A stretch of 64,000 nt of DNA from Caproicibacterium amylolyticum (GTDB lineage: Bacteria > Bacillota > Clostridia > Oscillospirales > Acutalibacteraceae): NCBI RefSeq assembly GCF_014467055.1, contig NZ_CP060696.1, forward strand, positions 1,426,001 to 1,490,000. Direction: 5' to 3'. Below the pieces are notes generated by a model that saw nothing but the letters and a program-made list of their open reading frames with translations, was not told where the DNA came from and ran no database searches. The translations under genes were made by a program, and so were the position numbers. Below, piece by piece: positions 27,408-46,516 of this stretch. How positions within the stretch are numbered: position 1 is the first letter of the stretch; each line of letters opens with the position of its first letter.

Positions 27408-28508
27408 TTACCCTCCAATGCCGTGACCCGTGGTAATACGCATTACGTCGCTGACTGCTACAATCGCCATAAAAGCCAGCAGCAACGCAAAAAACGCTGA
27501 TTCCACGATTGCCGCATACTTAGGATTCAGCGGTTTGCGGCGGATTGCTTCAATTAACAGAAACAGAATTTTTCCGCCGTCCAAAGCCGGAATCGGCAAC
27601 AGATTTACAATACCGAGGTTTACTGTGATAATCATAATTACGTAAACAATATTATTGACCGCAGCCAAAAAGCTCTGCTGCAAGCCGGCGCTTGCAGACT
27701 GACTAATGACCTGCACCAGACCGACCGGCCCGGTCATATCGTTTAAGCCAAATCTGCCGGTTACCAGTCCTGCAAGGCTGGCCCAAACCTGCCGCACAAC
27801 AGAAACAGTATCTGAAAAAGTTTTTTGCACCAGTGTTAATGGATTCTTTTGAATCGGCTGAACATAAAAGTCAAGCTGTGTGAGCTTTTTACCATTGGTA
27901 CCAGTAACTGTTTTCAACTTTACATTATTGAATTCAACTGTTTTGCCATTCCGATTCACCTGAAAATTCACAGAATCCGGATTAGCCAGCGCCAACGCAA
28001 ACGTAAGGTCTTTGTCTGTGTGAATTTTATAGCCGTTAATGTTTGTAAAACGGTCGCCGGCCTGTATGCCTGCACTCTGCAGCGCAGAATTGCTGCTGAA
28101 TTTGCTGATTGTAGTAGAAGTAAAAGCAGTTTCCTGCCCCAGCAAAATTGCCATTAAAACCAGCCCAAGCACAATATTCATGGTGGCACCCATCACTAAC
28201 ACCAAAAAACGCTGCCATTTTGGTTTGTTGCAAAAAGCGCGCGGGTCAGTACAAGGCTTTCCATCTTCATCTTGTCCATCTTCGCCTGGCATGGAGCAAA
28301 ATCCACCAATCGGCAACAGGCGGATAGAATAATCCGTTTCCCCCTTATGAAAGTGGGCAAGCCTTGGCCCCATGCCGATGGAAAACTCATCTACACGGAT
28401 GCCGCAGGCTTTCGCAGTAAAAAAGTGCCCGGCTTCATGGATAATGATGCTCAGGCAGAATAAAAGGACCCCGATGATGATCAGAAAAATAATTTCGACT
28501 GCTCTGAT
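27408..28508 (-). CDS. rseP: RseP/RasP site-2 zinc metalloprotease (M50B), apparent ATC start
   Basis: 366 residues if read from ATC 28508, which lies 9 bases after AAGGAG; an in-frame TGA precedes it and there is no ATG, GTG or TTG before residue 46. The internal ATG at 28373 cannot be the start because it would remove the zinc site 'HEAGH' (~25-29) and the first membrane helix. A PDZ domain spans ~125-205 and 'NLLPIPALDGGKILF' (~298-312) supplies the third zinc ligand Asp. Intramembrane proteases of this family cut anti-sigma factors and signal-peptide remnants. It starts 13 bp past dxr. The start codon is inferred. Confidence 0.88.
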   Translation of the reverse strand: MRAVEIIFLIIIGVLLFCLSIIIHEAGHFFTAKACGIRVDEFSIGMGPRLAHFHKGETDYSIRLLPIGGFCSMPGEDGQDEDGKPCTDPRAFCNKPKWQRFLVLVMGATMNIVLGLVLMAILLGQETAFTSTTISKFSSNSALQSAGIQAGDRFTNINGYKIHTDKDLTFALALANPDSVNFQVNRNGKTVEFNNVKLKTVTGTNGKKLTQLDFYVQPIQKNPLTLVQKTFSDTVSVVRQVWASLAGLVTGRFGLNDMTGPVGLVQVISQSASAGLQQSFLAAVNNIVYVIMIITVNLGIVNLLPIPALDGGKILFLLIEAIRRKPLNPKYAAIVESAFFALLLAFMAIVAVSDVMRITTGHGIGG

Positions 28509-35807: not shown

Positions 35808-36224
35808 ATGCTGGAATCACTTTTGTCCGGGCTGTTTTCTGGTTTGCTGTTTTTTATCCTGCATGTAACTGGCTCAGGATCTTTTCCACGTGCACTGACT
35901 GCAGCGCAGGAAAAGGACTGTCTGGAACGCCTTGCTAAGGGAGATGAAGATGCGCGGGATACGCTGATTGCACACAATCTAAGGCTGGTTGCACACATCA
36001 TTAAAAAATACAGTTCTGGAAATACAGATCAGGAAGATTTAATCTCGATTGGCACAATCGGGCTGATTAAGGCAGTAAACACCTTTGATCAGAGCAAAGG
36101 CATCCGTCTTTCCAGCTACGCTGCCAGATGTATTGAAAATGCAATCCTCACTCGACGGCAGAAACAGGCTTCTCCCCTGCCCTTATTGCAAGTTCTGCTG
36201 CTTTTTCCTCAGCAGCATGGATAG
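35808..36224 (+). CDS. sigK: Pro-sigma-K, 5' half of split sigK (spoIVCB part)
   Basis: Starts at ATG 35808, seven bases after GGAG. The first ~20 residues ('MLESLLSGLFSGLLFFILHV') are hydrophobic and match the pro-sequence of Bacillus-type pro-sigma-K that SpoIVFB removes. Sigma region 2 follows: 'AHNLRLVAHIIKKYS' and 'EDLISIGTIGLIKAVNTFD', then 'SSYAARCIEN'. True sigK sequence stops at codon 111 (Asn, 36138-36140), where the skin-like element begins; the next 27 codons to 36224 belong to the element and are not sigma sequence. Joined to 46166-46516 the gene encodes 227 residues. Sigma-K drives late mother-cell gene expression, so the half gene should be inactive until excision. Confidence 0.93.
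   Translation: MLESLLSGLFSGLLFFILHVTGSGSFPRALTAAQEKDCLERLAKGDEDARDTLIAHNLRLVAHIIKKYSSGNTDQEDLISIGTIGLIKAVNTFDQSKGIRLSSYAARCIENAILTRRQKQASPLPLLQVLLLFPQQHG
36137..36160. other. Left attachment site (attL) of the skin-like element
   Basis: Core AAATG (36137-36141), then two bases, then the arm ATCCTCAC (36144-36151), four bases and CGGCA (36156-36160). The arm repeats in inverted orientation at the right end. sigK codons for Glu-Asn overlap the core. Confidence 0.82.
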
Positions 36225-36552
36225 CTTCCACACCGGCTTTGCACAAGACATTGATGCCCTTTACAATCGTTACAATTACAAATGCTTCGGTCAGTTCCTG
36301 TACAGTCATGCCTGCTTCCACCGCCGCGGTAGCATGCGACCTGGCACCGCTGACCTCATTGTCCAAGCTGTCCAGAATCATAAAAATCAGTTCGCGTGTT
36401 TTAGCGGGAAGATGCCCCTGCTGTACGGACTCTCGCATGGTTAAGTAACCTTTTAATCCATCCGGAGCATATTTTGACAGTGCTTGTGCAAATGGCGGAT
36501 CCCATTTTAAAACATTTTTATAGTAGTCTAACATTTTTTCGCAGTCATCCAT
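36148..36552 (-). CDS. Carboxymuconolactone decarboxylase (CMD) family protein
   Basis: 134 residues, start ATG 36552 after GGAGG. The all-helical CMD/AhpD-like fold is suggested by 'LPAKTRELIFMILDSLDNE' (~49-67) and 'ARSHATAAVEAGMTVQELTEAFVIV' (quoted as ARSHATAAVEAGMTVQEL, ~70-87). The redox CxxC of AhpD-type members is missing, so it is more like the non-redox branch, and its reaction is unknown. The 3' end lies 7 bp inside the left end of the element and overlaps the left recombinase arm and the non-sigma tail of the sigK half on the other strand. Being first cargo gene at the boundary, its last codons are part of the attachment site. Confidence 0.75.
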   Translation of the reverse strand: MDDCEKMLDYYKNVLKWDPPFAQALSKYAPDGLKGYLTMRESVQQGHLPAKTRELIFMILDSLDNEVSGARSHATAAVEAGMTVQELTEAFVIVTIVKGINVLCKAGVEAIHAAEEKAAELAIRAGEKPVSAVE

Positions 36553-36654
36553 ATTTTGTTTGCCTCCAAGTTATAAAAATATCGTCATTTCAGAATGAAC
36601 AACCGCAATTATAGGCTCATGTTTTCACCAAGTCAAGGCTCGTATAAGTGCACT

Positions 36655-37554
36655 TCACCGTTTTGCAAACTGCCGCGGTGTCATACCTGTTTTTTTATGA
36701 AATACCCGGCTAAAGTAATACTCATCCCGAAAACCAGTCTGTACAGCGATTTCAAACAGCTTTTTGTTGCCTGCCATCAGCATGTCCTTTGCATGGTTCA
36801 GCCGGATGGAACATAGGTAATCAAAGATTGTAATACCGGTGTTCGCTTTAAAAATGCGGTTGAGATAGTCGAAATTCATGCCAAACTGTTCGCTGATACT
36901 TTCGCTGGTCAGGTGATTCGCATATTCATGATGGATAAAGTCAAGAATTTCCTGTACTTTTTGTGCTGTCATGTTCTTGTGGGTGGGAATGACCGTTTCA
37001 GAAATATCAGTCGAGATGGCAGATAAAATTTCCAGCAGCCTGCAGGAACATAGAATTTTATACTGCTCCAGATGCATATTGGAAGCCTGAACGGCTTCTG
37101 TAAGCAAATTTGTCACTTTTAAATAAGTTGCTTTGCTCATATGAAAATCCTGACACAAAATAAATTTAGCTCGGTTATATAAGTCTTTTAAAAATGGGTC
37201 ACAGCTATAAAAAAGATTGCGGTTTTGCTGAATAATAGCTTCTATCTCCAATTTGTTGCTACAGTCAAATTCTGTAATGGGAATATCAGTAAAATGAATG
37301 CAGCAGTACTCACATCCTTTTTCCAGTGTTGCTGAGTAAGATATATCTGGTTTTAAAAAGAAACCACTTTCTGCAGCAATCGTACAAGATCCCGCACTTG
37401 CTGCATGTAACTGCAGGTTTAAACTTCCGGAATCTACAAATACCAAAATACATTCGCTGCTGATTCTTTCAAATTCTACTGTTTTATCGAAAATTTTCAC
37501 ACGGTTCATGTAACTGACTTTTGGCAGACAATTTGTGTTCACAGCATAATACAA
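36655..37554 (-). CDS. AraC-family transcriptional regulator (skin cargo)
   Basis: 299 residues. The N-terminal ~190 residues are a divergent ligand-sensing part rich in cysteine. The C-terminal ~100 residues hold both AraC helix-turn-helix units ('ISEQFGMNFDYLNRIFKANTG' given as ISEQFGMNFDYLNRIFKA, ~218-235; 'IAVQTGFRDEYYFSRVFHK', ~268-286; then 'TGMTPRQFAK'). It is divergent from the aldo/keto reductase gene across 174 bp, so it likely controls that gene and perhaps the CMD gene downstream on its own strand. The inducer is not known. Confidence 0.88.
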   Translation of the reverse strand: MYYAVNTNCLPKVSYMNRVKIFDKTVEFERISSECILVFVDSGSLNLQLHAASAGSCTIAAESGFFLKPDISYSATLEKGCEYCCIHFTDIPITEFDCSNKLEIEAIIQQNRNLFYSCDPFLKDLYNRAKFILCQDFHMSKATYLKVTNLLTEAVQASNMHLEQYKILCSCRLLEILSAISTDISETVIPTHKNMTAQKVQEILDFIHHEYANHLTSESISEQFGMNFDYLNRIFKANTGITIFDYLCSIRLNHAKDMLMAGNKKLFEIAVQTGFRDEYYFSRVFHKKTGMTPRQFAKR

Positions 37555-37728
37555 AACCTTATCCTCTTTCTGGTTTCATTCATCAATTTTCTGTAATTAT
37601 AATTTAGTTATTGAAAAAAATCAAATTGGTCGCTAAAGTACAAATACTAAAAAGTTTATTGCATTTACACAAGTTCAGATTACATGTATACTCACAACAG
37701 AAAAACAAATAGAAAGGAAGTCAAGAAC

Positions 37729-38736
37729 ATGGAACTAAAAACACGATATATGGCAAAAGATACACGTTATGATGAAATGGCCTACTTCCGATGTGGAAAC
37801 AGCGGACTGAAGCTGCCTGCGGTTTCTCTTGGTCTATGGCACAATTTCGGCAGCAAAGATAATTTTGACAATATGCGGGAAATGTGCTTTACTGCATTTG
37901 ACAACGGCATTACGCATTTTGACCTTGCGAACAATTACGGCCCGGTGTATGGCAGTGCAGAGGAAAACTTCGGCAGGATCCTGAATCAGGATTTAAAAGC
38001 TTACCGCGATGAAATAATTGTCAGCACAAAAGCTGGATTTGATATGTGGAAAGGTCCTTACGGAGACGGCGGCAGCCGAAAATATTTGTTGGCAAGCCTT
38101 GACCAGAGTCTCAAACGATTGGGGCTTGACTATGTGGATATTTTTTATCACCACCGTATGGATCCGGAAACGCCACTGGAAGAAAGCATGATGGCACTGA
38201 ACACTGCTGTAAAAAGCGGCAAGGCGCTGTATGCCGGTATTTCCAACTATGATGCGGAAACAACAAAAAAGGCTATGGATATTTTGACTGACTTAAAATG
38301 CCCGTTTATTATTAACCAGAGTCGATACAACATTTTTGACCGTACAATCGAGAAAAACGGTTTGAAACATTTCGCGGCACAGAACGGCTGTGGAATCATC
38401 GTTTTCAGTCCACTGGCCCAGGGTATGCTGACGAACAAATATCTGCATGGTATTCCGGCTGACAGCCGTATTGCCAGAGACGGCAGATTCTTGAAAGCAT
38501 CTGATTTAACAGAAGAACGCTTGAAACAAATTCGCGAACTGAATGAGATTGCTCAAAATCGTGGACAAACACTTGCGCAGATGGCACTTTCATGGATCCT
38601 GCGCGACGGTGAAGTGACCAGTGTGCTGATTGGTGCTTCAAAGCCGCAGCAGATTGTGGAAAATCTCGGTATCATTCATAAAACACACTTTACAAAAGAA
38701 GAATTGGCAGATATTGAATGCGTTTCCGGCAAATAA
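37729..38736 (+). CDS. Aldo/keto reductase (YghZ/voltage-channel beta-subunit-like)
   Basis: 335 residues from ATG 37729 after GAAAGGAAG; an earlier in-frame start at 37684 lacks a ribosome site. Catalytic tetrad of the AKR fold: Asp and Tyr in 'HFDLANNYGP' (~62-71), Lys in 'IVSTKAGFDMW' (~99-109) and His in 'VDIFYHHRMDPETPLEE' (~139-155). 'QSRYNIFDR' and 'FSPLAQGMLTNKYL' match the family that includes L-glyceraldehyde-3-phosphate reductase YghZ. It reduces aldehydes with NADPH; the natural substrate is unknown. Divergent AraC regulator upstream, so it is probably inducible. Confidence 0.9.
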   Translation: MELKTRYMAKDTRYDEMAYFRCGNSGLKLPAVSLGLWHNFGSKDNFDNMREMCFTAFDNGITHFDLANNYGPVYGSAEENFGRILNQDLKAYRDEIIVSTKAGFDMWKGPYGDGGSRKYLLASLDQSLKRLGLDYVDIFYHHRMDPETPLEESMMALNTAVKSGKALYAGISNYDAETTKKAMDILTDLKCPFIINQSRYNIFDRTIEKNGLKHFAAQNGCGIIVFSPLAQGMLTNKYLHGIPADSRIARDGRFLKASDLTEERLKQIRELNEIAQNRGQTLAQMALSWILRDGEVTSVLIGASKPQQIVENLGIIHKTHFTKEELADIECVSGK

Positions 38737-38767
38737 TAAACACAAAAGAAAAAAGGTGGTTCGGTAA

Positions 38768-38911
38768 CCGCAAAATAGATAAAATCTGTCTGCTATCGAT
38801 GCCATAGAAAATTTTGGGAGCAAAAATATCAGGCATTAGTGAGGCCATGAAAACTTCCAACAGCATCATGCAGGGAGCCAGCAGTGCACCAACCAGTGCT
38901 GTGCCGTGTAA
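38768..38911 (-). pseudogene. Remnant of an ABC exporter N-terminus
   Basis: Read on the minus strand, this stretch gives 'LVGALLAPCMMLLEVFMASL' then 'MPDIFAPKIFYGIDSRQIL', which resembles the first membrane helix and following loop of multidrug-type ABC exporters (usual pattern LLAPLxMLLEVxxDLxxPxLMADI). It has no proper start, is about 48 codons long and ends before any other exporter domain. It is most likely debris from a deletion in the cargo. The call rests on memory of the family and is tentative. Confidence 0.35.
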
Positions 38912-38977
38912 AATGTTTCGTATTAAGCAAACGTTTGTCCTGCTTCTTCGCCTCGGAAAATCCTCCTAATGTAAGTA

Positions 38978-39024
38978 TAAAAGAAAAGCCGATGCATTTT
39001 TTGAATGCATTGGCTTTTCTTTTA
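38978..39024. terminator. Bidirectional terminator between aldo/keto reductase region and ABC permease
   Basis: AAAAGAAAAGCC-ATGCAT pairs with ATGCAT-GGCTTTTCTTTT, with A and T runs on either side. It overlaps the stop codon of the minus-strand permease. Confidence 0.85.
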
Positions 39025-40593
39025 TGGTCTTAGTTTAAAGGTTTTCGGTGCCAGCCGATAAGCCAGAATCAGCGCAATCATTACATAAAGTATGCTGAAT
39101 ATCGTTATTACCGTACCAAAAATCAAAGTTGGTATTTGCTTTCCAATCGCAATATAGCAGACCAAATAAGTTAAGCCGCTGATAACGGCATAGGTACTGT
39201 TTTTCATTTCAATATTTACATTGTAAGGCTGGAGCAGATAATACAAAACCATATAATGAACTGAAAAAAATATAGACATGGCAATAATAGAGATGAATAG
39301 CAGAAAATAGTTTAGCGGTGTGTCTGTTCCGCCTGAGCAGAATAAAATCAGTGGCAGCCCTGCTGCAATCACCACCGCAGGCAGTAAATTGATTTTAATA
39401 ACCGATTTCAGGCGTTCTGTAAACAATCCCAAGATCACTTTTGGCTGCCGATAAAACCGATATGCCAGCATACTGTGGTCACAGTTCATAAACATTGCTT
39501 TTGTAACGACCTGTCCGCGATTAATTAAGTACATAACAAAAAGAAAATATGGCAAGAATGTCAGTGTCAATTCATTTAAACTCGTTTTCGCATCTTTGTT
39601 CACAGCACATAAGACCAACAAAAGAACAACCACACAGGCACTGATAAGCGTGATACGCTTTGCAGATTTCATTAAAATCCTGCGGTGACGCTTCATAAAC
39701 AGCTCATTGAAGTACTGATATCCTTCCCCTCTGCTGGTTACACCGTCGGTCAAATCAATTTTCTTCTGCATAGCAGTTTGCTGTAAATTTCCCGTATTTG
39801 CAACTGCCATAACCGTATTTTCTGTCAGCAAATCTTTGTAAACACCACGGTAGTTTTCAAAAATGACGATGTACCGGCCGGCAAAAACAGCAGCAATTGT
39901 GGCTGCTGCTGTGAAAAGGGCAAACACAATACCGTTCAATGCAATGCCGAAAATTGGCGGCAGGTAGGCGGCAGCAAGCAGTCCGCCTACTATTGCCCAA
40001 ATAACCGGATCCGGCAGATTTTCGTTGGCAGCTTTACCCTTGTGCGCGTAATTTTTCAGGAGCAGTGCACCACAAATCAACTTGACAGCAATTACATAGA
40101 CGGGCGTCAGAAGGCACAATCCAAGCGGAACGCCGGCTGCTAGGCCAAAGAGAATAGTGAACGGCAGAAAGCCGACCAGCATTTTCAACAGAAAATAACA
40201 GTAGTTAGAAAGTGTGTAAGCCTTAGCGTCCATGCGCATTAAAACCAACGCATAATATTTGTCTTTTGTAGGTTCAAACATATGCGTATTCAGCACACCG
40301 CCCACAAGTGTCAGAAACAAAAACAGGTGCAGCATGGTGTCAGGCTTTGGCGACTTCATAAAAGAAAGTACCGAAAAAATCATAGCGGCAAGGTAAATGA
40401 GTTTTCCTAAAAATACAGAAACAAACTCCACAATGCCGCTGATAACGCCTGCAAAAATTTTTAGCCCATAGCAGGAATAAAGCGAATCCGGCAGCAGTTT
40501 CTTTAATATGGGAAATTGCTTGAGAGAATATAGGATACTGTTCGTACGGTATGTGTTTTTTAGACGAAAAGAGATTTTAAATGCTTCAAACAT
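39022..40593 (-). CDS. ABC transporter permease (multi-helix membrane subunit)
   Basis: 523 residues with about ten hydrophobic helices in two groups, split by a cytoplasmic stretch around residues 240-300 ('NYRGVYKDLLTENTVMAVAN', 'RGEGYQYFNELFMKRHRR'). No solute-binding or ATPase motif is seen. The ATP-binding gene immediately upstream overlaps it by 8 bp, so the two form a complete exporter-type system. The layout recalls large ABC-2-like permeases of Firmicutes, often linked to antimicrobial or peptide export, but I cannot name the substrate. Confidence 0.75.
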   Translation of the reverse strand: MFEAFKISFRLKNTYRTNSILYSLKQFPILKKLLPDSLYSCYGLKIFAGVISGIVEFVSVFLGKLIYLAAMIFSVLSFMKSPKPDTMLHLFLFLTLVGGVLNTHMFEPTKDKYYALVLMRMDAKAYTLSNYCYFLLKMLVGFLPFTILFGLAAGVPLGLCLLTPVYVIAVKLICGALLLKNYAHKGKAANENLPDPVIWAIVGGLLAAAYLPPIFGIALNGIVFALFTAAATIAAVFAGRYIVIFENYRGVYKDLLTENTVMAVANTGNLQQTAMQKKIDLTDGVTSRGEGYQYFNELFMKRHRRILMKSAKRITLISACVVVLLLVLCAVNKDAKTSLNELTLTFLPYFLFVMYLINRGQVVTKAMFMNCDHSMLAYRFYRQPKVILGLFTERLKSVIKINLLPAVVIAAGLPLILFCSGGTDTPLNYFLLFISIIAMSIFFSVHYMVLYYLLQPYNVNIEMKNSTYAVISGLTYLVCYIAIGKQIPTLIFGTVITIFSILYVMIALILAYRLAPKTFKLRP

Positions 40594-41293
40594 CTTCTTC
40601 TCCTTTCAGTGCAGCGATGATTTTATCTTTAAACTCTGTATTATCCAGATTTTCTTTCTGAATTTCCTCCAAAACGCCTTGATTCAGAATTACAATTTCA
40701 TCGCATAGATCCAAAGCCAGTTCCATAATGTGCGTGGAAAAAATAATAATGTGGTCTTTTTTAATTTGCCGCAGCAGCAGCTTCATTTCGTCTGCAACCA
40801 CCACATCAAATGAAGTGAGCGGTTCATCCAGAAGCAGGATAGCAGGATTGGCAATGAAATTCACCAGCATCTGCATTTTATTTTTCATGCCATGCGAATA
40901 GTCTTTCAACAGTTTGTCACGGTCATCTTTCGCAATCTTCATCAGGTCGAAGTAGTCATCCAGTGATTTTTTGTTTGGAATTCTTTTGGAGTTAATGTCC
41001 GTAAAGAATTTTAAGAATTCTCTGCCCGTTAAAAACTCTGGAACAACGGGTGTGGAAAGTACATAACCGATATCTTCAGCCTGTACAGTACGTTCATTAC
41101 CGTTTTCCTCAATGAAAAAAGAACCGCCGTCCGGCTTTAAATCTTCATTTATACAATTAAAAAAAGTTGTTTTGCCTGCGCCATTTCGCCCCAGCAGACC
41201 ATAGATCTTTCCTCTTTCAAAGGTAAAACTAACCCTTTTCAAAACTTCTTTATTGTCAAAATTCTTTTTTAAATCCCGAATAATTAGTTGCAT
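40586..41293 (-). CDS. ABC transporter ATP-binding protein
   Basis: 235 residues, one nucleotide-binding domain. Walker A 'GLLGRNGAGKTTFFNC' (~33-48), signature region 'DYSHGMKNKMQMLVNFI' (~130-146; 'SHGM' in place of LSGGQ, as in ABC-2 exporters), Walker B 'ILLLDEPLTSFD' (~152-163) and the switch His in 'FSTHIMELALDL' (~184-195). It powers the permease encoded downstream. There is a 216-bp gap upstream holding the terminator of the glucosidase gene, so it probably has its own promoter. Confidence 0.92.
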   Translation of the reverse strand: MQLIIRDLKKNFDNKEVLKRVSFTFERGKIYGLLGRNGAGKTTFFNCINEDLKPDGGSFFIEENGNERTVQAEDIGYVLSTPVVPEFLTGREFLKFFTDINSKRIPNKKSLDDYFDLMKIAKDDRDKLLKDYSHGMKNKMQMLVNFIANPAILLLDEPLTSFDVVVADEMKLLLRQIKKDHIIIFSTHIMELALDLCDEIVILNQGVLEEIQKENLDNTEFKDKIIAALKGEEDV

Positions 41294-41453
41294 TTTATAA
41301 ATCCTTCCACATTCTTCCCGGCTTTCCGGTGCCTCTCTTTTTGCTGTTTCCTCTGCTAAATCGCAATTACAGTATGGAATTTAACAAGTAAAATTCACAT
41401 AACTTTACTATGATAACAAAATAACCGGTGATTATCAAGAACCAAAAAGGCAA

Positions 41454-41496
41454 AAAATTCCCGGCCGACTAGTAAAAATCGTCAGCCAGGAATTTT
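41454..41496 (-). terminator. Terminator of the GH13 glucosidase gene
   Basis: AAAATTCCCGGCCGAC pairs, with three G-T or mismatched positions, with GTCAGCCAGGAATTTT around an 11-base loop, 14 bp past the stop codon. Confidence 0.7.
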
Positions 41497-41509
41497 AGAT
41501 TTGCAAAGA

Positions 41510-43174
41510 TTAAAAAGCGATAACGGCACTGCTGCAGGACGGCAGAAGCAGATTTGTACCGATGGATTTAACTGCTTCCATATTTTTCAGCAAAAGTTCT
41601 TCTGCCGGTGCAATCAAAGGAAGTGTTACAGAATCCACCCCAAAGTTTGCGGCTACCAGAACACAGGTGTCCCCCACTTTGCGGTAGTACGCAAATACAG
41701 ATGGCTGGTCCTGATAAGCTGGTGCAAAGCGTCCTTCTGTAAAGACCTCTTTCCAGCGGTCAGATTTGTGCAGGGCAATCAGCCGACGGTAATAATTCAG
41801 TACAGAGTCCGCTCTGCCAGTCTGCTCTGCCACATTGATTTCTGTATAGTTTGGATTCACTTTCAGCCACGGTTTGCCGGAAGTAAAACCGGAATTTACG
41901 CTGCTGCACCACTGCATAGGGGTACGTGCATTGTCACGGCTCTTGTGGAAGCAGGCGTTTAAAGCATCTTCAGCAGATACGCCGTCTGCCAATGCTGCAG
42001 TATATTGATTTTTTGTACCAATGTCATCGTAGTCCTCGATGGAACCCATTGGACAGTTTCGCATGCCGATTTCCTGACCCTGATACAGGAACGGGATACC
42101 CCGCAGCAGCAGGTTTACCGTTGCCAGCATTTTTACGCCCGCTTCATTTTGTGCGTAATCCGGGAGGAAGCGGCTGGCGCCTCGCGGTTCGTCGTGATTT
42201 TCAATGATATTGGCAAGGAAGCAGATGTCCTGACACTTCAGTTGTGAAGCAAAGACTGCGTTCCGCAGAGCATGAAAATCGACCGGACTGGTGTCCAGCC
42301 ATGTACGATTTCCGGCTACACACTCTGCAGAAAAGTCGAACATCGTGGAGAAATGGCCGCTTTCACCGACAAATTCCCGCAGCTCATCTTCTTTCATATT
42401 AAATACTTCTGCAACTGTGAAAGCATCCTGCTTCGCAAAAGTATGTTCTTTAAGTTCTTCCAGCAGTTCCCCTACTCCGCTGACTTCGTCAATCATTTTG
42501 GATACGGCAGCAAGTCCATCATTGCCGTCCGGCGGAAAACTAGGAAAAGCCGTGTCTTTTTTTATATTGATAATTGCATCTATACGGAACCCGGCAACGC
42601 CTTTATTAAGCCACCAATTTACCATATCATAAATTTTTTGCTTAACAGTTGGATTTTCCCAATTTAGATCTGGTTGTTCTTTTGCGAACATATGCAGATA
42701 ATACTTATCCGTACCGGGAATCGGCTCCCATGCACTGCCGCCAAAGTAAGAGCGGTAGTTGCTTGGCGGATTTCCGTTTTTGCCTTTTACAAAGTAAAAG
42801 TAATCCGCATATTTCCCGTCTGGTTCGGCCAGTGCTTTCTGAAACCACTCATGCTTATCAGAGCAGTGGTTGACAACCAGATCCATAATTAGGTACATTC
42901 CGCGCTTTTTGGTTTCTTCCAGCAGTTCGTCAAAGTCTTCCATTGTGCCAAACTCCGGCGCAATCTTGTAGTAATCGGAAATATCATAGCCCTCGTCAAC
43001 AAACGGCGAAGCGTAAATTGGGGAAAGCCAGAGGATATCAATGCCAAGTTCCTTTAAATAGTCCAGCTTATTGATAATGCCACGCAAATCGCCAATGCCG
43101 TCTCCGTTTGTGTCGCAAAAGCTTTTCGGATAAATCTGATATGCTACTTTATCATGCCACCACTTTTTTTCCAT
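41510..43174 (-). CDS. GH13 alpha-glucosidase (oligo-1,6-glucosidase-like)
   Basis: 554 residues, normal for subfamily GH13_31. 'WWHDKVAYQIYPKSFCDTNGDGIGDLRG' is represented by 'VAYQIYPKSFCDTNGDGIGD' at 9-28. 'DLVVNHCSDKHEWF' (~98-111), 'GFRIDAIINI' with nucleophile Asp (~196-205), acid Glu in 'FTVAEVFNM' (~253-261) and 'IIENHDEPR' (~325-333) form the active site. The residue after the nucleophile Asp is Ala, where isomaltases usually have Val, so alpha-1,4 or mixed specificity is possible. No signal peptide, so it acts on imported sugars. It is 82 bp behind a same-strand AraC gene, the likely regulator. Confidence 0.92.
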   Translation of the reverse strand: MEKKWWHDKVAYQIYPKSFCDTNGDGIGDLRGIINKLDYLKELGIDILWLSPIYASPFVDEGYDISDYYKIAPEFGTMEDFDELLEETKKRGMYLIMDLVVNHCSDKHEWFQKALAEPDGKYADYFYFVKGKNGNPPSNYRSYFGGSAWEPIPGTDKYYLHMFAKEQPDLNWENPTVKQKIYDMVNWWLNKGVAGFRIDAIINIKKDTAFPSFPPDGNDGLAAVSKMIDEVSGVGELLEELKEHTFAKQDAFTVAEVFNMKEDELREFVGESGHFSTMFDFSAECVAGNRTWLDTSPVDFHALRNAVFASQLKCQDICFLANIIENHDEPRGASRFLPDYAQNEAGVKMLATVNLLLRGIPFLYQGQEIGMRNCPMGSIEDYDDIGTKNQYTAALADGVSAEDALNACFHKSRDNARTPMQWCSSVNSGFTSGKPWLKVNPNYTEINVAEQTGRADSVLNYYRRLIALHKSDRWKEVFTEGRFAPAYQDQPSVFAYYRKVGDTCVLVAANFGVDSVTLPLIAPAEELLLKNMEAVKSIGTNLLLPSCSSAVIAF

Positions 43175-43256
43175 GTGTTACAACCCCTTTCTGTGATAAT
43201 TACAGTATACCCGTACAGAAAGCGACTTTCTTCCGCAATCTTGAGAAAAAGTTACG

Positions 43257-44138
43257 CTATTTTGACCTCTTTGCCTGCTTGCGAAAAGCGGAGGGCGGCA
43301 TTCCCGCCATATCTTGAAAGCGCTTAATGAAGTAACCAATGTTTTCATATCCGCAGCAGGCAGCGATATCAATGACTTTGCTGTCCGTTTCCAGTAGAAG
43401 CTGTTTAGCATGCTCAACGCGTATTGTGTTGAGATAGGCAGTCAGTGTGCAGCCGGTCATTTTGCGAAAATAGCGGCAGAAATACTGCGGATTCATTCCG
43501 GCGATTTTTGCGGCATCCTCTACGGTGATTTTTTGTGAATAGGAACCACGCAAAAAGGTCAAAACCTTTTTAATTGTTTCAATCTGATACGTGTCGTTTT
43601 TCTTTGGCCGTGATTCCTGCTGAAAGCAGTTCTGTTCGTAAAGGCAGGCGATCATTTGATAAAGTCCGGCCTTTACCTGTAAACATGCGCCAATGCCCTC
43701 TTTTTCTGATGCGTACAGTGCATGGAGATATGCGGCAGCCAGCTGATTCCACACAGGGCTGTTTGCCTGAACCAAGCGCGGGAACTGAATTTGATTTTCA
43801 ATCAGCGGATGAATAATTTTATACTGGACTGCATCAAAATTTTCAAAGCTCAGCATTTTCAGATCAAAAACGAAAGCACTTTCGCGCAGTCCCCGTACCA
43901 GCCGGAGAGAATGAATTTCTTCCGGCATGAGAAACAGCATCGCCGGTGCTTCCACTCTGTATGTCTGCATATTTACGTTCATCTCAAAAGCGCCTTCATG
44001 CAAAAAAATAATTTCTGCTTCATTGTGCCAGTGCAGCGTTACATCCAGTCGGTTTTCTCCATTCCACCGGTAGCTGGCAAACGGAAAGCTGACAGTTCCG
44101 TGCGGTGTCTGCTCTTTTAGAGACTGTTTGTTTTCCAT
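43257..44138 (-). CDS. AraC-family transcriptional regulator (second, skin cargo)
   Basis: 293 residues. N-terminal cupin typical of sugar-responsive members: 'LHWHNEAEIIFLHEG' (~35-49) and 'LFLMPEEIHSLRL' (~68-80). The C-terminal DNA-binding half has 'AAKIAGMNPQYFCRYFRKMTG' (quoted AAKIAGMNPQYFCRYFRK, ~203-220) and 'AACCGYENIGYFIKRFQDMAG' (quoted AACCGYENIGYFIKRFQ, ~251-267). It precedes the GH13 glucosidase gene on the same strand by 82 bp. It probably activates that gene in response to an alpha-glucoside. Confidence 0.9.
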   Translation of the reverse strand: MENKQSLKEQTPHGTVSFPFASYRWNGENRLDVTLHWHNEAEIIFLHEGAFEMNVNMQTYRVEAPAMLFLMPEEIHSLRLVRGLRESAFVFDLKMLSFENFDAVQYKIIHPLIENQIQFPRLVQANSPVWNQLAAAYLHALYASEKEGIGACLQVKAGLYQMIACLYEQNCFQQESRPKKNDTYQIETIKKVLTFLRGSYSQKITVEDAAKIAGMNPQYFCRYFRKMTGCTLTAYLNTIRVEHAKQLLLETDSKVIDIAACCGYENIGYFIKRFQDMAGMPPSAFRKQAKRSK

Positions 44139-44270
44139 TATGGCTCTTTCTGCCGCAAAGGCGGCAATATCTTTTTTTATATTCTAATAAAAGAAAAGTG
44201 TCAAGTCAAGAATGCATAACGGACAATCCGGTATACATAAAACTTTTATGAAGGAAAGGAGGAAACAGCG

Positions 44271-44444
44271 CTGGTACATATCCATATACACAAACCGGTA
44301 GATTTAAAAGCTGCACAGGAACTGCAAAAGAAAGCCGCGATGTTGCATGCACACGCGGCGGCAGCATATCTGCAAAGGCAAAAGTGGACGGACACGCAAA
44401 AAGAACAGATATGGAATGCTCTTGCTGAAAAAGCAAAACAGTAA
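44271..44444 (+). CDS. Small basic helical protein upstream of the skin recombinase (possible directionality factor)
   Basis: 57 residues if read from CTG 44271, which follows AAAGGAGG by 8 bases; an in-frame TAA lies upstream and no ATG, GTG or TTG exists before residue 24. The protein is rich in Ala, Gln, Lys and His ('KAAQELQKKAAMLHAHAAAA', 'DTQKEQIWNALAEKAKQ') and should be mostly alpha-helical. I recognise no family. It is co-oriented with the recombinase gene, from which a terminator-like hairpin separates it. In other serine-recombinase elements a small protein controls excision direction, so that role is a guess from position. The codon phase and ribosome site support a real gene moderately. 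Confidence 0.5.
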   Translation: MVHIHIHKPVDLKAAQELQKKAAMLHAHAAAAYLQRQKWTDTQKEQIWNALAEKAKQ

Positions 44445-44483
44445 AAGAAAAACCGGCGCCCTTTTGCTGCCGGCTTTTCTTTT
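44444..44483 (+). terminator. Terminator-like hairpin between the small gene and the recombinase
   Basis: AAAAGAAAAACCGGC pairs with GCCGGCTTTTCTTTT (one mismatch) over a 10-base loop and ends in a T-rich run 13 bp before the recombinase start. It should limit read-through into the recombinase gene. Confidence 0.65.
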
Positions 44484-44496
44484 ACGGAAAGGTGGA

Positions 44497-46167
44497 TTGG
44501 CAAAGGTGCCTGTGGAAATTGCGGTTTATTCGCGAAAATCCCGTTTTACCGGAAAAGGCGAAAGTATCGAAAACCAAATAGGGCTTTGCCGCCAATATAT
44601 CCAACTGCATTTCGGTGATAACGTGCGTCTGCACATTTACGAAGACGAAGGATATTCTGGTGGAAATACTGACCGCCCGATGTTTAAGCAAATGATCAGG
44701 GATGCCAAAAATAAAGTCTTTGCGATTTTGGTTTGTTATCGCCTGGATCGTATCAGCCGCAGCGTAGGAGATTTTGCAGAATTAATAAAAGAGTTGGAAC
44801 AACTGCAGATTCAATTTGTATCTATCAGGGAGCAGTTCGACACCTCTTCCCCTATGGGCCGAGCCATGATGTATATTTCATCTGTGTTCTCACAGCTGGA
44901 GCGCGAAACCACTGCGGAGCGGATTCGTGACAATATGCATGAACTAGCAAAAACCGGCCGCTGGCTTGGCGGCACAACCCCCACCGGATACTGTTCCAAA
45001 GCTGTTGCAAAAGTAACGGTTGATGGAAAGACCCGGCAGGCATATAAACTGGAAATTGTGCCAGCAGAAGCTGAAATCGTGTGCAGTATTTTTCGGGACT
45101 TTTTGCAAACCGGCTCTCTTGTTCAGGTAACGGAAAATTTAAAACAATACGGCGCAGTAACTAAAAATCAAAAGGAATTTACGCGTTTTGCCGTGCGAAA
45201 CATTTTGCAAAATCCAGTATATATGACAGCGGACCAAGATGCTTATTCCTATTTCAGAGAAAACGCTGTGGAAATCTACGCCGAAAAAGAAGACTTTAAC
45301 GGAAAATTCGCAATTATGGCCTACAATAAAACACTCCAAAAACACGGCCGGCACCCCATGCTGCGGAATATGCAGGAATGGATTGTTGCACTCGGCAAAC
45401 ACCAGGGATTAATTTCCGGCACAGACTGGGTGCGTGTACAAAACATTTTAAAAAGTAATTGTTCTAAAACTTATCGAAAGCCAAAGAGCAATATTGCTCT
45501 TTTGAGCAGTCTGCTGCATTGTGCCGTCTGCAAAAGCTATATGCGGCCAAAATCGGCAGGCGTTCGCACAAAAGATGGTCTCATTCATTTCTATTATGTT
45601 TGCCGTGAAAAAGAAAAAAGCAAACGGCAGAGCTGCAGCTGTGCAAATGCAGACGGCAGTCAGTTAGACGCGTCTGTATGCGAAGCAGTCCTGAATATTA
45701 CAGAAGACTACGAAATCTTTCTCAGCACGTTGAAAAGCTGCTGTAGCCTCTGGAAAAGCGGTGGTAACAATCCGCACAAGACACTGCAAAGTACAGAAAA
45801 GGCAATTCAGACGCTGATTTGTTCTTTGCAGGCTACTAATGGGTCCGCTGCAGAACCGCATATTTTAGAGCAGATTGTAAAGCTGGACAGTCAGGTAAAA
45901 AAACTGCGCAGCCAAATATTGCAAGAGGAGCAGAACAAAACAACAGTAAAGTTTTCAAATTCTGAGCTGCAGACTATATGTGATAAACTTTACAGTTTCC
46001 CTGCTTTATTTGAAGAAATGAATGTGGCAGAAAAAAGAGAAATTTTGCGTTCACTTATAAATTATATTGATTGGGACGGAAAAACAGCCAATGTGTGGAT
46101 GCACGGAGTTTTTCCTGTACAGGTGACCACTGCGGCTTCATTGCCGCTGCGTGAGGATAGTAAATGA
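44497..46167 (+). CDS. spoIVCA: Large serine recombinase of the skin-like element (SpoIVCA-type)
   Basis: 556 residues from TTG 44497; GTG 44506 or 44512 are alternatives. The N-terminal resolvase domain has the nucleophile Ser15 in 'IAVYSRKSRF', 'DEGYSGGNTDRPMF' and 'CYRLDRISRSVGDF' (~77-90), then 'SQLERETTAERIRDNM'. A Recombinase domain follows ('FRDFLQTGSLVQVTENLKQYG', quoted FRDFLQTGSLVQVTENL, ~197-213; 'AVRNILQNPVYMT'). A zinc ribbon ('LHCAVCKSYMR...YYVCREK...SCSC', ~339-380) and a C-terminal coiled coil (~420-480) complete it. It should excise the element to rebuild sigK. The stop TGA (46165-46167) overlaps the right AAATG core, so its last codons are part of the attachment site. Confidence 0.92.
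   Translation: MAKVPVEIAVYSRKSRFTGKGESIENQIGLCRQYIQLHFGDNVRLHIYEDEGYSGGNTDRPMFKQMIRDAKNKVFAILVCYRLDRISRSVGDFAELIKELEQLQIQFVSIREQFDTSSPMGRAMMYISSVFSQLERETTAERIRDNMHELAKTGRWLGGTTPTGYCSKAVAKVTVDGKTRQAYKLEIVPAEAEIVCSIFRDFLQTGSLVQVTENLKQYGAVTKNQKEFTRFAVRNILQNPVYMTADQDAYSYFRENAVEIYAEKEDFNGKFAIMAYNKTLQKHGRHPMLRNMQEWIVALGKHQGLISGTDWVRVQNILKSNCSKTYRKPKSNIALLSSLLHCAVCKSYMRPKSAGVRTKDGLIHFYYVCREKEKSKRQSCSCANADGSQLDASVCEAVLNITEDYEIFLSTLKSCCSLWKSGGNNPHKTLQSTEKAIQTLICSLQATNGSAAEPHILEQIVKLDSQVKKLRSQILQEEQNKTTVKFSNSELQTICDKLYSFPALFEEMNVAEKREILRSLINYIDWDGKTANVWMHGVFPVQVTTAASLPLREDSK
46142..46166. other. Right attachment site (attR) of the skin-like element
   Basis: TGCCG (46142-46146), four bases, GTGAGGAT (46151-46158), three bases, then core AAATG (46162-46166). 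The arm is the inverted copy of the left-end arm. Confidence 0.82.
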
Positions 46168-46516
46168 AATACTCATGTACTTCCGCAGTACCAAAAAATC
46201 GGCGCAGGATGTCTCTATGAATGAGCCAATTGACAGCGACAAGGACGGCAGTGCCTTAACTTTAATGGATGTTCTGGCTACAGAGGATAATATTTTTGAC
46301 AATCTTGACCGAAAGATCAAGTGTGAGCAGCTCTATACATATTTAAGGAAGCTCTCCCCCCGCGAACAGACAATTTTAGTGCTTCGATATGGGCTGAGCG
46401 GAGGTGAACCTCAAACCCAGCGGGAAGTTGCCCAGTCACTTGGCATTTCACGCAGCTATGTTTCCCGCATTGAAAAAAAAGCACTGGAAACGCTGCACAA
46501 GCATTTTGAGCAATGA
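46151..46516 (+). CDS. sigK: Sigma-K, 3' half of split sigK (spoIIIC part)
   Basis: Open from a GTG at 46151, but the first four or five codons belong to the element. True sigK sequence begins in the AAATG core at 46162-46166 and reads 'EILMYFRSTKKSAQDVSMNE', the end of sigma region 2.4 and region 3, then region 4 with 'LSPREQTILVLRYGLSGGE' and the helix-turn-helix 'TQREVAQSLGISRSYVSRIEK'. Alone it lacks the core-binding part and cannot act as a sigma factor. It has no convincing ribosome site, supporting expression only after excision. Fusion to 35808-36140 gives 227 residues. Confidence 0.93.
   Translation: MRIVNEILMYFRSTKKSAQDVSMNEPIDSDKDGSALTLMDVLATEDNIFDNLDRKIKCEQLYTYLRKLSPREQTILVLRYGLSGGEPQTQREVAQSLGISRSYVSRIEKKALETLHKHFEQ

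Follow-up and report, generated by a model that had tools for sequence, protein, structure and literature searches.

The systems closest to the locus presented here are the skin elements, which interrupt the sigma-K gene (sigK). In Bacillus subtilis, skin is a prophage-like element of 48 kb with a 5-nucleotide core (PMC13141910), and the recombinase gene spoIVCA adjoins the 5' half of sigK (PMC10747680). In Clostridioides difficile, the recombinase CD1231 and the directionality factor CD1234 belong to the skin element, sigK has no pro-sequence, and the arrangement has been termed an exception in clostridia (PMC5025042). We analysed a stretch of 64,000 bp (hereafter the window) from Caproicibacterium amylolyticum, assembly GCF_014467055.1, contig NZ_CP060696.1, positions 1,426,001 to 1,490,000. 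In this window the pro-sigma-K gene is interrupted at codon 110 by an element of 10,025 bp, with both halves of the gene on the same strand and in phase. The interruption is very probably a compact skin-like element, predicted to be excised in the mother cell during sporulation by its own large serine recombinase, with a crossover at the dinucleotide AA and a 57-residue factor both likely parts of the reaction. The features concerned are the following.

35808..36139, forward strand: sigK 5' half, codons 1-110 (pro-sequence-like N-terminus, regions 1-2); TIGR02846 at 1.6e-43 for this half
36138..36139, forward strand: likely crossover dinucleotide AA of attL, placed by the attP dyad centre
36140..36162, forward strand: element-side attachment (att) arm at the left end, TGCAATCCTCACTCGACGGCAGA, inverted complement of the right arm
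44214..44239, forward strand: sigma-E-like promoter candidate, GCATAAC-N11-TATACATA, upstream of the small open reading frame (ORF)
44271..44444, forward strand: 57-residue protein, directionality-factor candidate, likely CTG start after GGAAAGGAGG
44506..46167, forward strand: large serine recombinase of 553 aa; PF00239, PF07508, PF13408
46140..46162, forward strand: element-side att arm at the right end, ATTGCCGCTGCGTGAGGATAGTA, inside the recombinase coding sequence
46163..46164, forward strand: likely crossover dinucleotide AA of attR, placed by the attP dyad centre
46165..46516, forward strand: sigK 3' half (regions 3-4); NF004471 at 2.4e-43 for this half

The frame of the sigK 5' half continues into the element and stops at 36224. 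A 14-bp alignable stretch, AAATG(C/A)AAT(C/A)CTCA, is present at both junctions, and a join anywhere within it leads to an open protein of 227 residues. The two half genes, their strand, phase and 10,025-bp spacing and the recombinase between them had been proposed in an earlier sequence-only reading of the window, and all of this was reproduced when the frames and the spacing were re-read. The same reading had joined the halves at the AAATG repeats; its open frame of 227 residues stands, and the crossover point is corrected to the AA inside AAATG, at the dyad centre described below. Joined SigK scores 298 bits against the NCBIfam model NF004471 (cut-off 252), and the best match of either half alone is a SigK model. 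The host genome consists of one contig of 2,996,201 bp and is 99.99% complete. A search of this genome with the joined protein identified no second sigK, the intact copy elsewhere being what the sequence-only reading had named as counter-evidence; beyond the two halves only more distant sigma factors were recovered, and the next-best match, 42% identical over residues 17-226, is taken to be SigE. SpoIVA (730 bits, cut-off 459.9) and SpoIIID (112.3 bits, cut-off 111.5) are present in the same genome. With a G+C content of 42.6%, the element lies below its two flanks (46.6% and 47.3%).

The likely start of the recombinase is GTG 44506, behind the ribosome-binding site AAAGGTGG, and not ATG 44347. 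The C-terminus reads ..REDSK and is followed by TGA (46165-46167), a stop codon made of sigK bases at attR. Among the 101 columns invariant in 14 homologs, 98 are kept in the window's recombinase.

A census of the recombinase was made in 250 genomes of the family, evenly drawn from a larger group. Thirteen genomes besides the window's contain matches (44-52% identity, E of 4.1e-141 or lower), and in each of them the recombinase is immediately followed, on its own strand, by an isolated sigK 3' half. At least one sigK match was found in 229 of the 250 genomes, mostly one or two, and three matches, interpreted as the split sigK and SigE, in 17, the window's included. Positions were read for the window and 14 of these genomes, whereas G048 was assigned by its left junction and G194 by match count alone; the 17 are a lower bound as halves may be lost at contig ends. 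In G194, the third sigK-like match suggests a split sigK and the nearest recombinase match is only 31% identical, possibly another type of element. Three sigK matches are also present in G233, where they include two full-length copies with identical scores (C8:18183-18857 and 27810-28484), about 9 kb apart and in opposite orientation. An alternative architecture is seen at L073 (G135:C14:36300-45500), where sigK is split by about 7 kb, a 33%-identical recombinase is reversed and a tail-like fragment lies near the 3' half.

An earlier scan of the wider genome collection with a single recombinase query gave no matches; a search with a 15-sequence alignment gave at least 589 candidate stretches, of which 570 were confirmed and the best 80 kept. 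Among these best 80 of at least 589, a script scored 54 recombinases as ending at TGA in the att core beside sigK (one of them, L218, is judged misfiled and by its spacing stops inside sigK), 11 as reading through the core to a stop inside sigK in another frame and five as stopping before the core; six could not be classed by the script, three have no sigK 3' half downstream and one lies at a contig end. Their genera include Flavonifractor, Oscillibacter, Intestinimonas, Lacrimispora, Sporomusa, Anaeromassilibacillus, Massilioclostridium and Holdemania. The sequence-only reading had called the locus a new example in its lineage; this is too modest, as the same module occurs in dozens of other genomes and integration interrupts the recombinase gene as well. 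Loci in which a sigK 5' half and a recombinase occur together are referred to as complete elements (n = 28); the script scored a sigK 3' half in 26 of them, G010 has one as well, and the contig of L211 ends at the core. The smallest element, L198 (8999-11653), has 2,654 bp and contains little besides the small ORF, the recombinase and one further ORF, presumably cytochrome-b5-like.

When the junctions of different elements are aligned by their sigK codons, the arms read GAGCCG..GTGAGGATAGCA and TGCAATCCTCAC..CGGCTC. The symmetry of the circle junction was scored at 36 possible centres in 22 of the 28 complete elements, the other six being excluded because the core pattern did not locate their core. 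The AA centre collected 294 summed matches and the next best 185, and AA is the own best dyad centre in 20 of the 22 elements. These two bases are the first two of codon 110, and the joined sigK reads CIENEILMYF. The crossover is therefore placed, as the likely site, at AA (36138-36139 / 46163-46164).

Eleven genomes of the genus were compared at this codon. In eight of them sigK is intact, in two (the window's and G010) it is split, and in one (G007, 74% complete) none was seen. The empty site is represented by the closest congener, G001, whose junction reads ATTGAAAATGAAATCCTCATGTACTTC. In G010, the same sigK codon is occupied by a different element of about 6.1 kb; its recombinase is about 45-47% identical to that of the window, and from a reading of its ORFs its cargo differs as well. 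We take this cargo to be a MEMO/AMMECR1-like and radical-SAM-like pair, small helix-turn-helix proteins and an SGNH-like hydrolase. A separate element at the same codon means that the sigK site is a repeated target and no single inherited accident. It could be argued that the insertion is dead, sigK being permanently broken and the strain no longer completing sporulation. An intact copy would be expected if sigK were needed, and the absence of one from the genome fits this view; against it, the two halves have open frames, joined SigK shares 92% identity with that of G001, the recombinase retains its invariant columns and the att arms are symmetrical, and we regard a dead insertion as highly improbable. 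One split sigK, the empty sites, the intact recombinase residues, the symmetrical att arms and the presence of SpoIVA and SpoIIID support a skin-like element that would still be excised.

Excision is likely to be helped by a partner of the recombinase, and a candidate is found beside it. A homolog of the window's small protein (about 55 aa, mostly 49-66 residues) lies between the sigK halves in all 28 complete elements, the window's included, with the consensus MxIIVHxP....EL.K..A..HA.A...Y..KL.CP.EQK. It is on the strand opposite to the recombinase in 26 of them and on the same strand in two, one being the window's. Over all 90 loci, many of them incomplete, it was found in 45, and in one of these 45 matches (L212, not a complete element) it is located beyond the recombinase. 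No significant Pfam or PHROGs match was obtained for the protein. In the window's small ORF no ATG, GTG or TTG precedes the conserved part, and CTG 44271-44273 with a strong ribosome-binding site is the likely start. At E 1e-5, 19 of the 250 family genomes contain the protein, namely 12 of the 17 split genomes, G103, G234 and five others; in G103 and G234 it lies about 0.1 kb from an attL-type tail.

The window shows the order sigma-E-like site, small ORF, recombinase. Scored with a weight matrix, the site is the only one of at least 16 bits on either strand of the 64-kb window, and its score is reached in 6 of 1000 shuffled versions of the 330 bp upstream. This is suggestive of sigma-E control of the window's excision module. 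In the relatives, sigma-E promoters as a family-wide trait were considered and rejected, there being no excess over the reverse strand, and in part of these scans both strands outscore Markov-shuffled sequence. Because of this missing excess, sigma-E control is something we infer for the window.

Several observations weigh against the reading of a sporulation-controlled excision module with its own small factor. Against TIGR02846, joined SigK scores 296 bits, 2.6 bits short of the cut-off of 298.65. Sigma-E-like sites are in no excess over the reverse strand either upstream of the recombinase (77 relatives) or upstream of the small protein (45 elements). Five of the 19 genomes with the small protein (G053, G181, G188, G195 and G213) show neither signs of a split sigK nor an attL-type tail, and five of the 17 split genomes (G031, G048, G101, G135 and G194) gave no small-protein match at E 1e-5. 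The window's own small ORF would need a CTG start, its orientation is common to only two of the 28 complete elements, and the protein is a directionality-factor candidate by constancy and size alone. The 28 complete elements are not independent, several being close relatives. The patterns used for finding the core required AA, so that the constancy of AA is built in and the dyad centre is the independent test.

The attP core lies inside the recombinase reading frame, in the window as in its relatives. It could be placed in 83 of the 90 elements, and in 78 of these no stop interrupts the frame between the last conserved DG and the core, as compared to 22.1 expected from base composition. The other five recombinases stop before the core, which speaks against a general rule; the borrowed stop is thus common and not obligatory. 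Since the integrated form keeps all three Pfam domains, inactivation of the enzyme by integration is not expected. In the circle form, as computed by joining the ends, the sigK-derived stop is lost and the recombinase frame continues. A conserved tail of about 200 residues with two helix-turn-helix domains is present at attL in 11 of the 28 complete elements. It is read in frame from the core in nine of the 11, and L245 and L248 are open over the first 69 residues printed, the domain match of L248 being partial. At E below 1e-50, 15 tails were found among the 250 family genomes. In the integrated form the tail adjoins the sigK 5' half in another frame. The structure model of the tail has a mean predicted local distance difference test (pLDDT) score of 83, and most matches of a fold search with it were generic helix-turn-helix folds of the SinR/Cro type, none of them reaching E 0.001.

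Joining the ends of the G231 element by script predicted a long-form junction of GEDSE followed by CYTIAAEQSAIEV. A search with words from the G231 tail only then returned 26 proteins, 18 of which combine a body of more than 400 residues, the core motif and the tail (some partial). P0001 (777 aa) reads MYPLGEDSE followed by CYTIAAEQSAIEV, which is the predicted junction; the natural long forms have about 775 aa, and none is close to the window's own recombinase. For the tail-fused form of G041 no natural protein was found at E 1e-5, and the fusion prediction thus succeeded in one of two tries. In 25 of 153 protein pairs the bodies are at least 95% identical and the tails less than 85% (P0002/P0003 100/82; P0015/P0025 97.7/53.8), and in 24 of 153 the tails are at least 90% identical on bodies below 75% (P0007/P0009 55.7/98.7; P0012/P0015 52.1/99.3), near-identical tails occurring on recombinase bodies only 50-64% identical. 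Such an exchange of bodies and tails at the core residue is the trace expected of recombination at the core. The contig given for one long form has 402 kb, and tandem elements on the chromosome may, beside free circles, be a source of long forms. No free viral form with the tail was found in IMG/VR, searched with one degenerate pattern, or in phage records; plasmids were searched with the recombinase only.

The open frame over the junction could also be functionless, running to the first available stop, with the tails being separate repressor genes. In 17 of the 28 complete elements, the window's included, there is no conserved tail, and tails also occur on unrelated bodies (P0004, P0016 and P0023), both of which would fit a functionless frame. 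The 78 open frames out of 83 would not, and neither would the natural fused proteins or the four of the 11 tails (G041, G040, G055 and L246) that lack an ATG, GTG or TTG ahead of the conserved tryptophan near residue 24, where the conserved tail starts. We therefore consider a functionless frame doubtful, yet a serious contender.

The three unrelated bodies that carry the same tail are a tyrosine-recombinase-like protein (our own reading) and, from their Pfam accessions, an FtsX-like permease and a tRNA nucleotidyltransferase; these look as if they were element ends at att sites in other genes. On the phage-like contigs L126, L144, L146 and L166, a related recombinase is followed by a tail-like helix-turn-helix ORF in a frame of its own, a possible source of the fused tail. 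On the Ruminococcus albus plasmid pRUMAL01 (L087 5980-7850), a related recombinase overlaps a short downstream ORF by 22 bp, recalling the att-core overlap.

Recombinase and sigK identities were contrasted in 79 elements, G010 being excluded. Recombinases 94-99% identical occur in hosts that share only about 40-60% identity in their sigK 3' halves (L187/L186, L206/L194, G041/L215 and L255/L257), and vertical inheritance as the sole cause of the spread was rejected by these contrasts. The two identities still correlate (Mantel r 0.355, 78 elements), and the window's recombinase has no relative above 52% within the set of 79. Near-identical recombinases in distant hosts are indicative of horizontal movement, and it is likely that the elements have moved between genomes. 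Apart from the excision module, the window's element contains seven ORFs.

36148..36552, reverse strand: carboxymuconolactone decarboxylase family protein; Pfam PF02627 at 8.5e-8
36655..37554, reverse strand: AraC-type regulator; PF12833
37684..38736, forward strand: aldo/keto reductase; PF00248 at 1.4e-72, NF007388 above its cut-off
39022..40593, reverse strand: hydrophobic protein without a family match, overlapping the ABC transporter ATPase gene and by position and appearance likely its permease
40586..41293, reverse strand: ABC transporter ATPase; PF00005 at 6.5e-22
41510..43174, reverse strand: alpha-amylase family glucosidase; PF00128 at 1e-134
43257..44138, reverse strand: AraC-type regulator; PF12833 at 2e-23

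Six of the seven belong to Pfam families of metabolism, transport or regulation, and the seventh is without a match; no phage or conjugation family was found among them in Pfam or NCBIfam, and the element does not qualify as a prophage. This bears on the possibility that the insertion is simply mobile and leaves the chromosome at random or upon general induction, as an integrative element or prophage would, with the repair of sigK being incidental. The near-identical recombinases in distant hosts, three IMG/VR contigs with the recombinase joined to a sigK 3' half and the missing sigma-E excess in relatives would be in keeping with it. The cargo without phage or conjugation matches and the lack of the tail of the widely spread G231 group argue otherwise for the window's element, as does the strongest sigma-E-like site of the 64 kb preceding the excision module; moreover, sigK should be required late in sporulation. 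Excision by chance or general induction thus appears unlikely. As the window's copy has no tail, carries metabolic cargo and contains no recognised phage gene, it suggests a domesticated version with one-way excision.

Excision in the mother cell, the reading that we prefer, can be pictured as follows. In the integrated form, as seen in the sequence, sigK is split and the recombinase frame ends at the TGA supplied by sigK. A sigma-E-type promoter, of which one strong site is seen in the window only, would switch on the small protein and the recombinase in the mother cell. The recombinase would synapse attL and attR and exchange strands at AA; the products would be a rebuilt sigK, reading ..CIENEILM.., and a circle, on which the recombinase would lose its borrowed stop and gain a tail. 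This tail is the tandem helix-turn-helix in relatives and, in the window, a stretch of about 103 residues encoded antisense to the decarboxylase gene. When the mother cell dies, the circle would disappear with it, and the forespore would retain the element with its metabolic cargo. A broader proposal, for which we see about as much reason to believe as to doubt, is that one crossover toggles sigK and the recombinase in opposite directions: the short form would be ready for excision and the long form would serve integration or repression, so that the direction switch of the recombinase would sit in its att site. Bodies and tails would be swapped at the exact core, Clostridia would co-opt such elements as removable locks on late sporulation, and the window would hold a tail-less, domesticated copy with metabolic cargo.

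A compact and horizontally moving module of recombinase, protein of about 55 aa and attP (down to 2.65 kb), directed to one sigK codon in many genera, would turn programmed excision from a clostridial exception into a lock on sporulation that is common among Bacillota of the gut and the environment. It also offers a bacterial example, open to testing, of an integrase gene interrupted by the attachment site that it contains, and the family supplies many short matched sets of recombinase, att site and factor candidate. In the open-licence literature, with subscription papers and preprints outside this scope, no report was found of this family of sigK elements, nor of any serine recombinase whose gene is cut at its own attP.

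Parts of this arrangement are known from other systems. As in the archaeal suicidal integrases of SSV1 and pTN3, attP lies within the integrase gene and integration cuts that gene; those enzymes are tyrosine recombinases, described as exclusively archaeal, and are split into inactive parts (PMC8371274), whereas the bacterial serine recombinase keeps its catalytic and DNA-binding parts and would swap only its C-terminus. The mycobacteriophage BPs also has attP in a coding gene, and its integration yields a shorter, active protein; in this integration-dependent immunity, however, the gene is the repressor and not the recombinase, and no sporulation gene is rebuilt (PMC4557955). The gin element in gerE of Bacillus cereus is likewise no prophage, resides in a late sporulation gene and is excised during sporulation, but differs from the window's element in its length (28.6 kb), its three serine recombinases and its target gene (PMC5595907). 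With the B. subtilis skin element and SpoIVCA, the window shares an interrupted pro-sigma-K gene and, as predicted, its repair by a recombinase. In contrast to the B. subtilis arrangement, the recombinase here abuts the sigK 3' half and its frame enters the att site (PMC10747680). The C. difficile skin element is similar in its split sigK, its large serine recombinase and its small excision factor, for which the window has a candidate; this candidate has no Pfam or PHROGs match and is likened to CD1234 by its putative role. Unlike the C. difficile element, the one described here interrupts a sigK with a pro-sequence-like N-terminus, belongs to a widespread family and takes the stop codon of its recombinase from sigK (PMC5025042).

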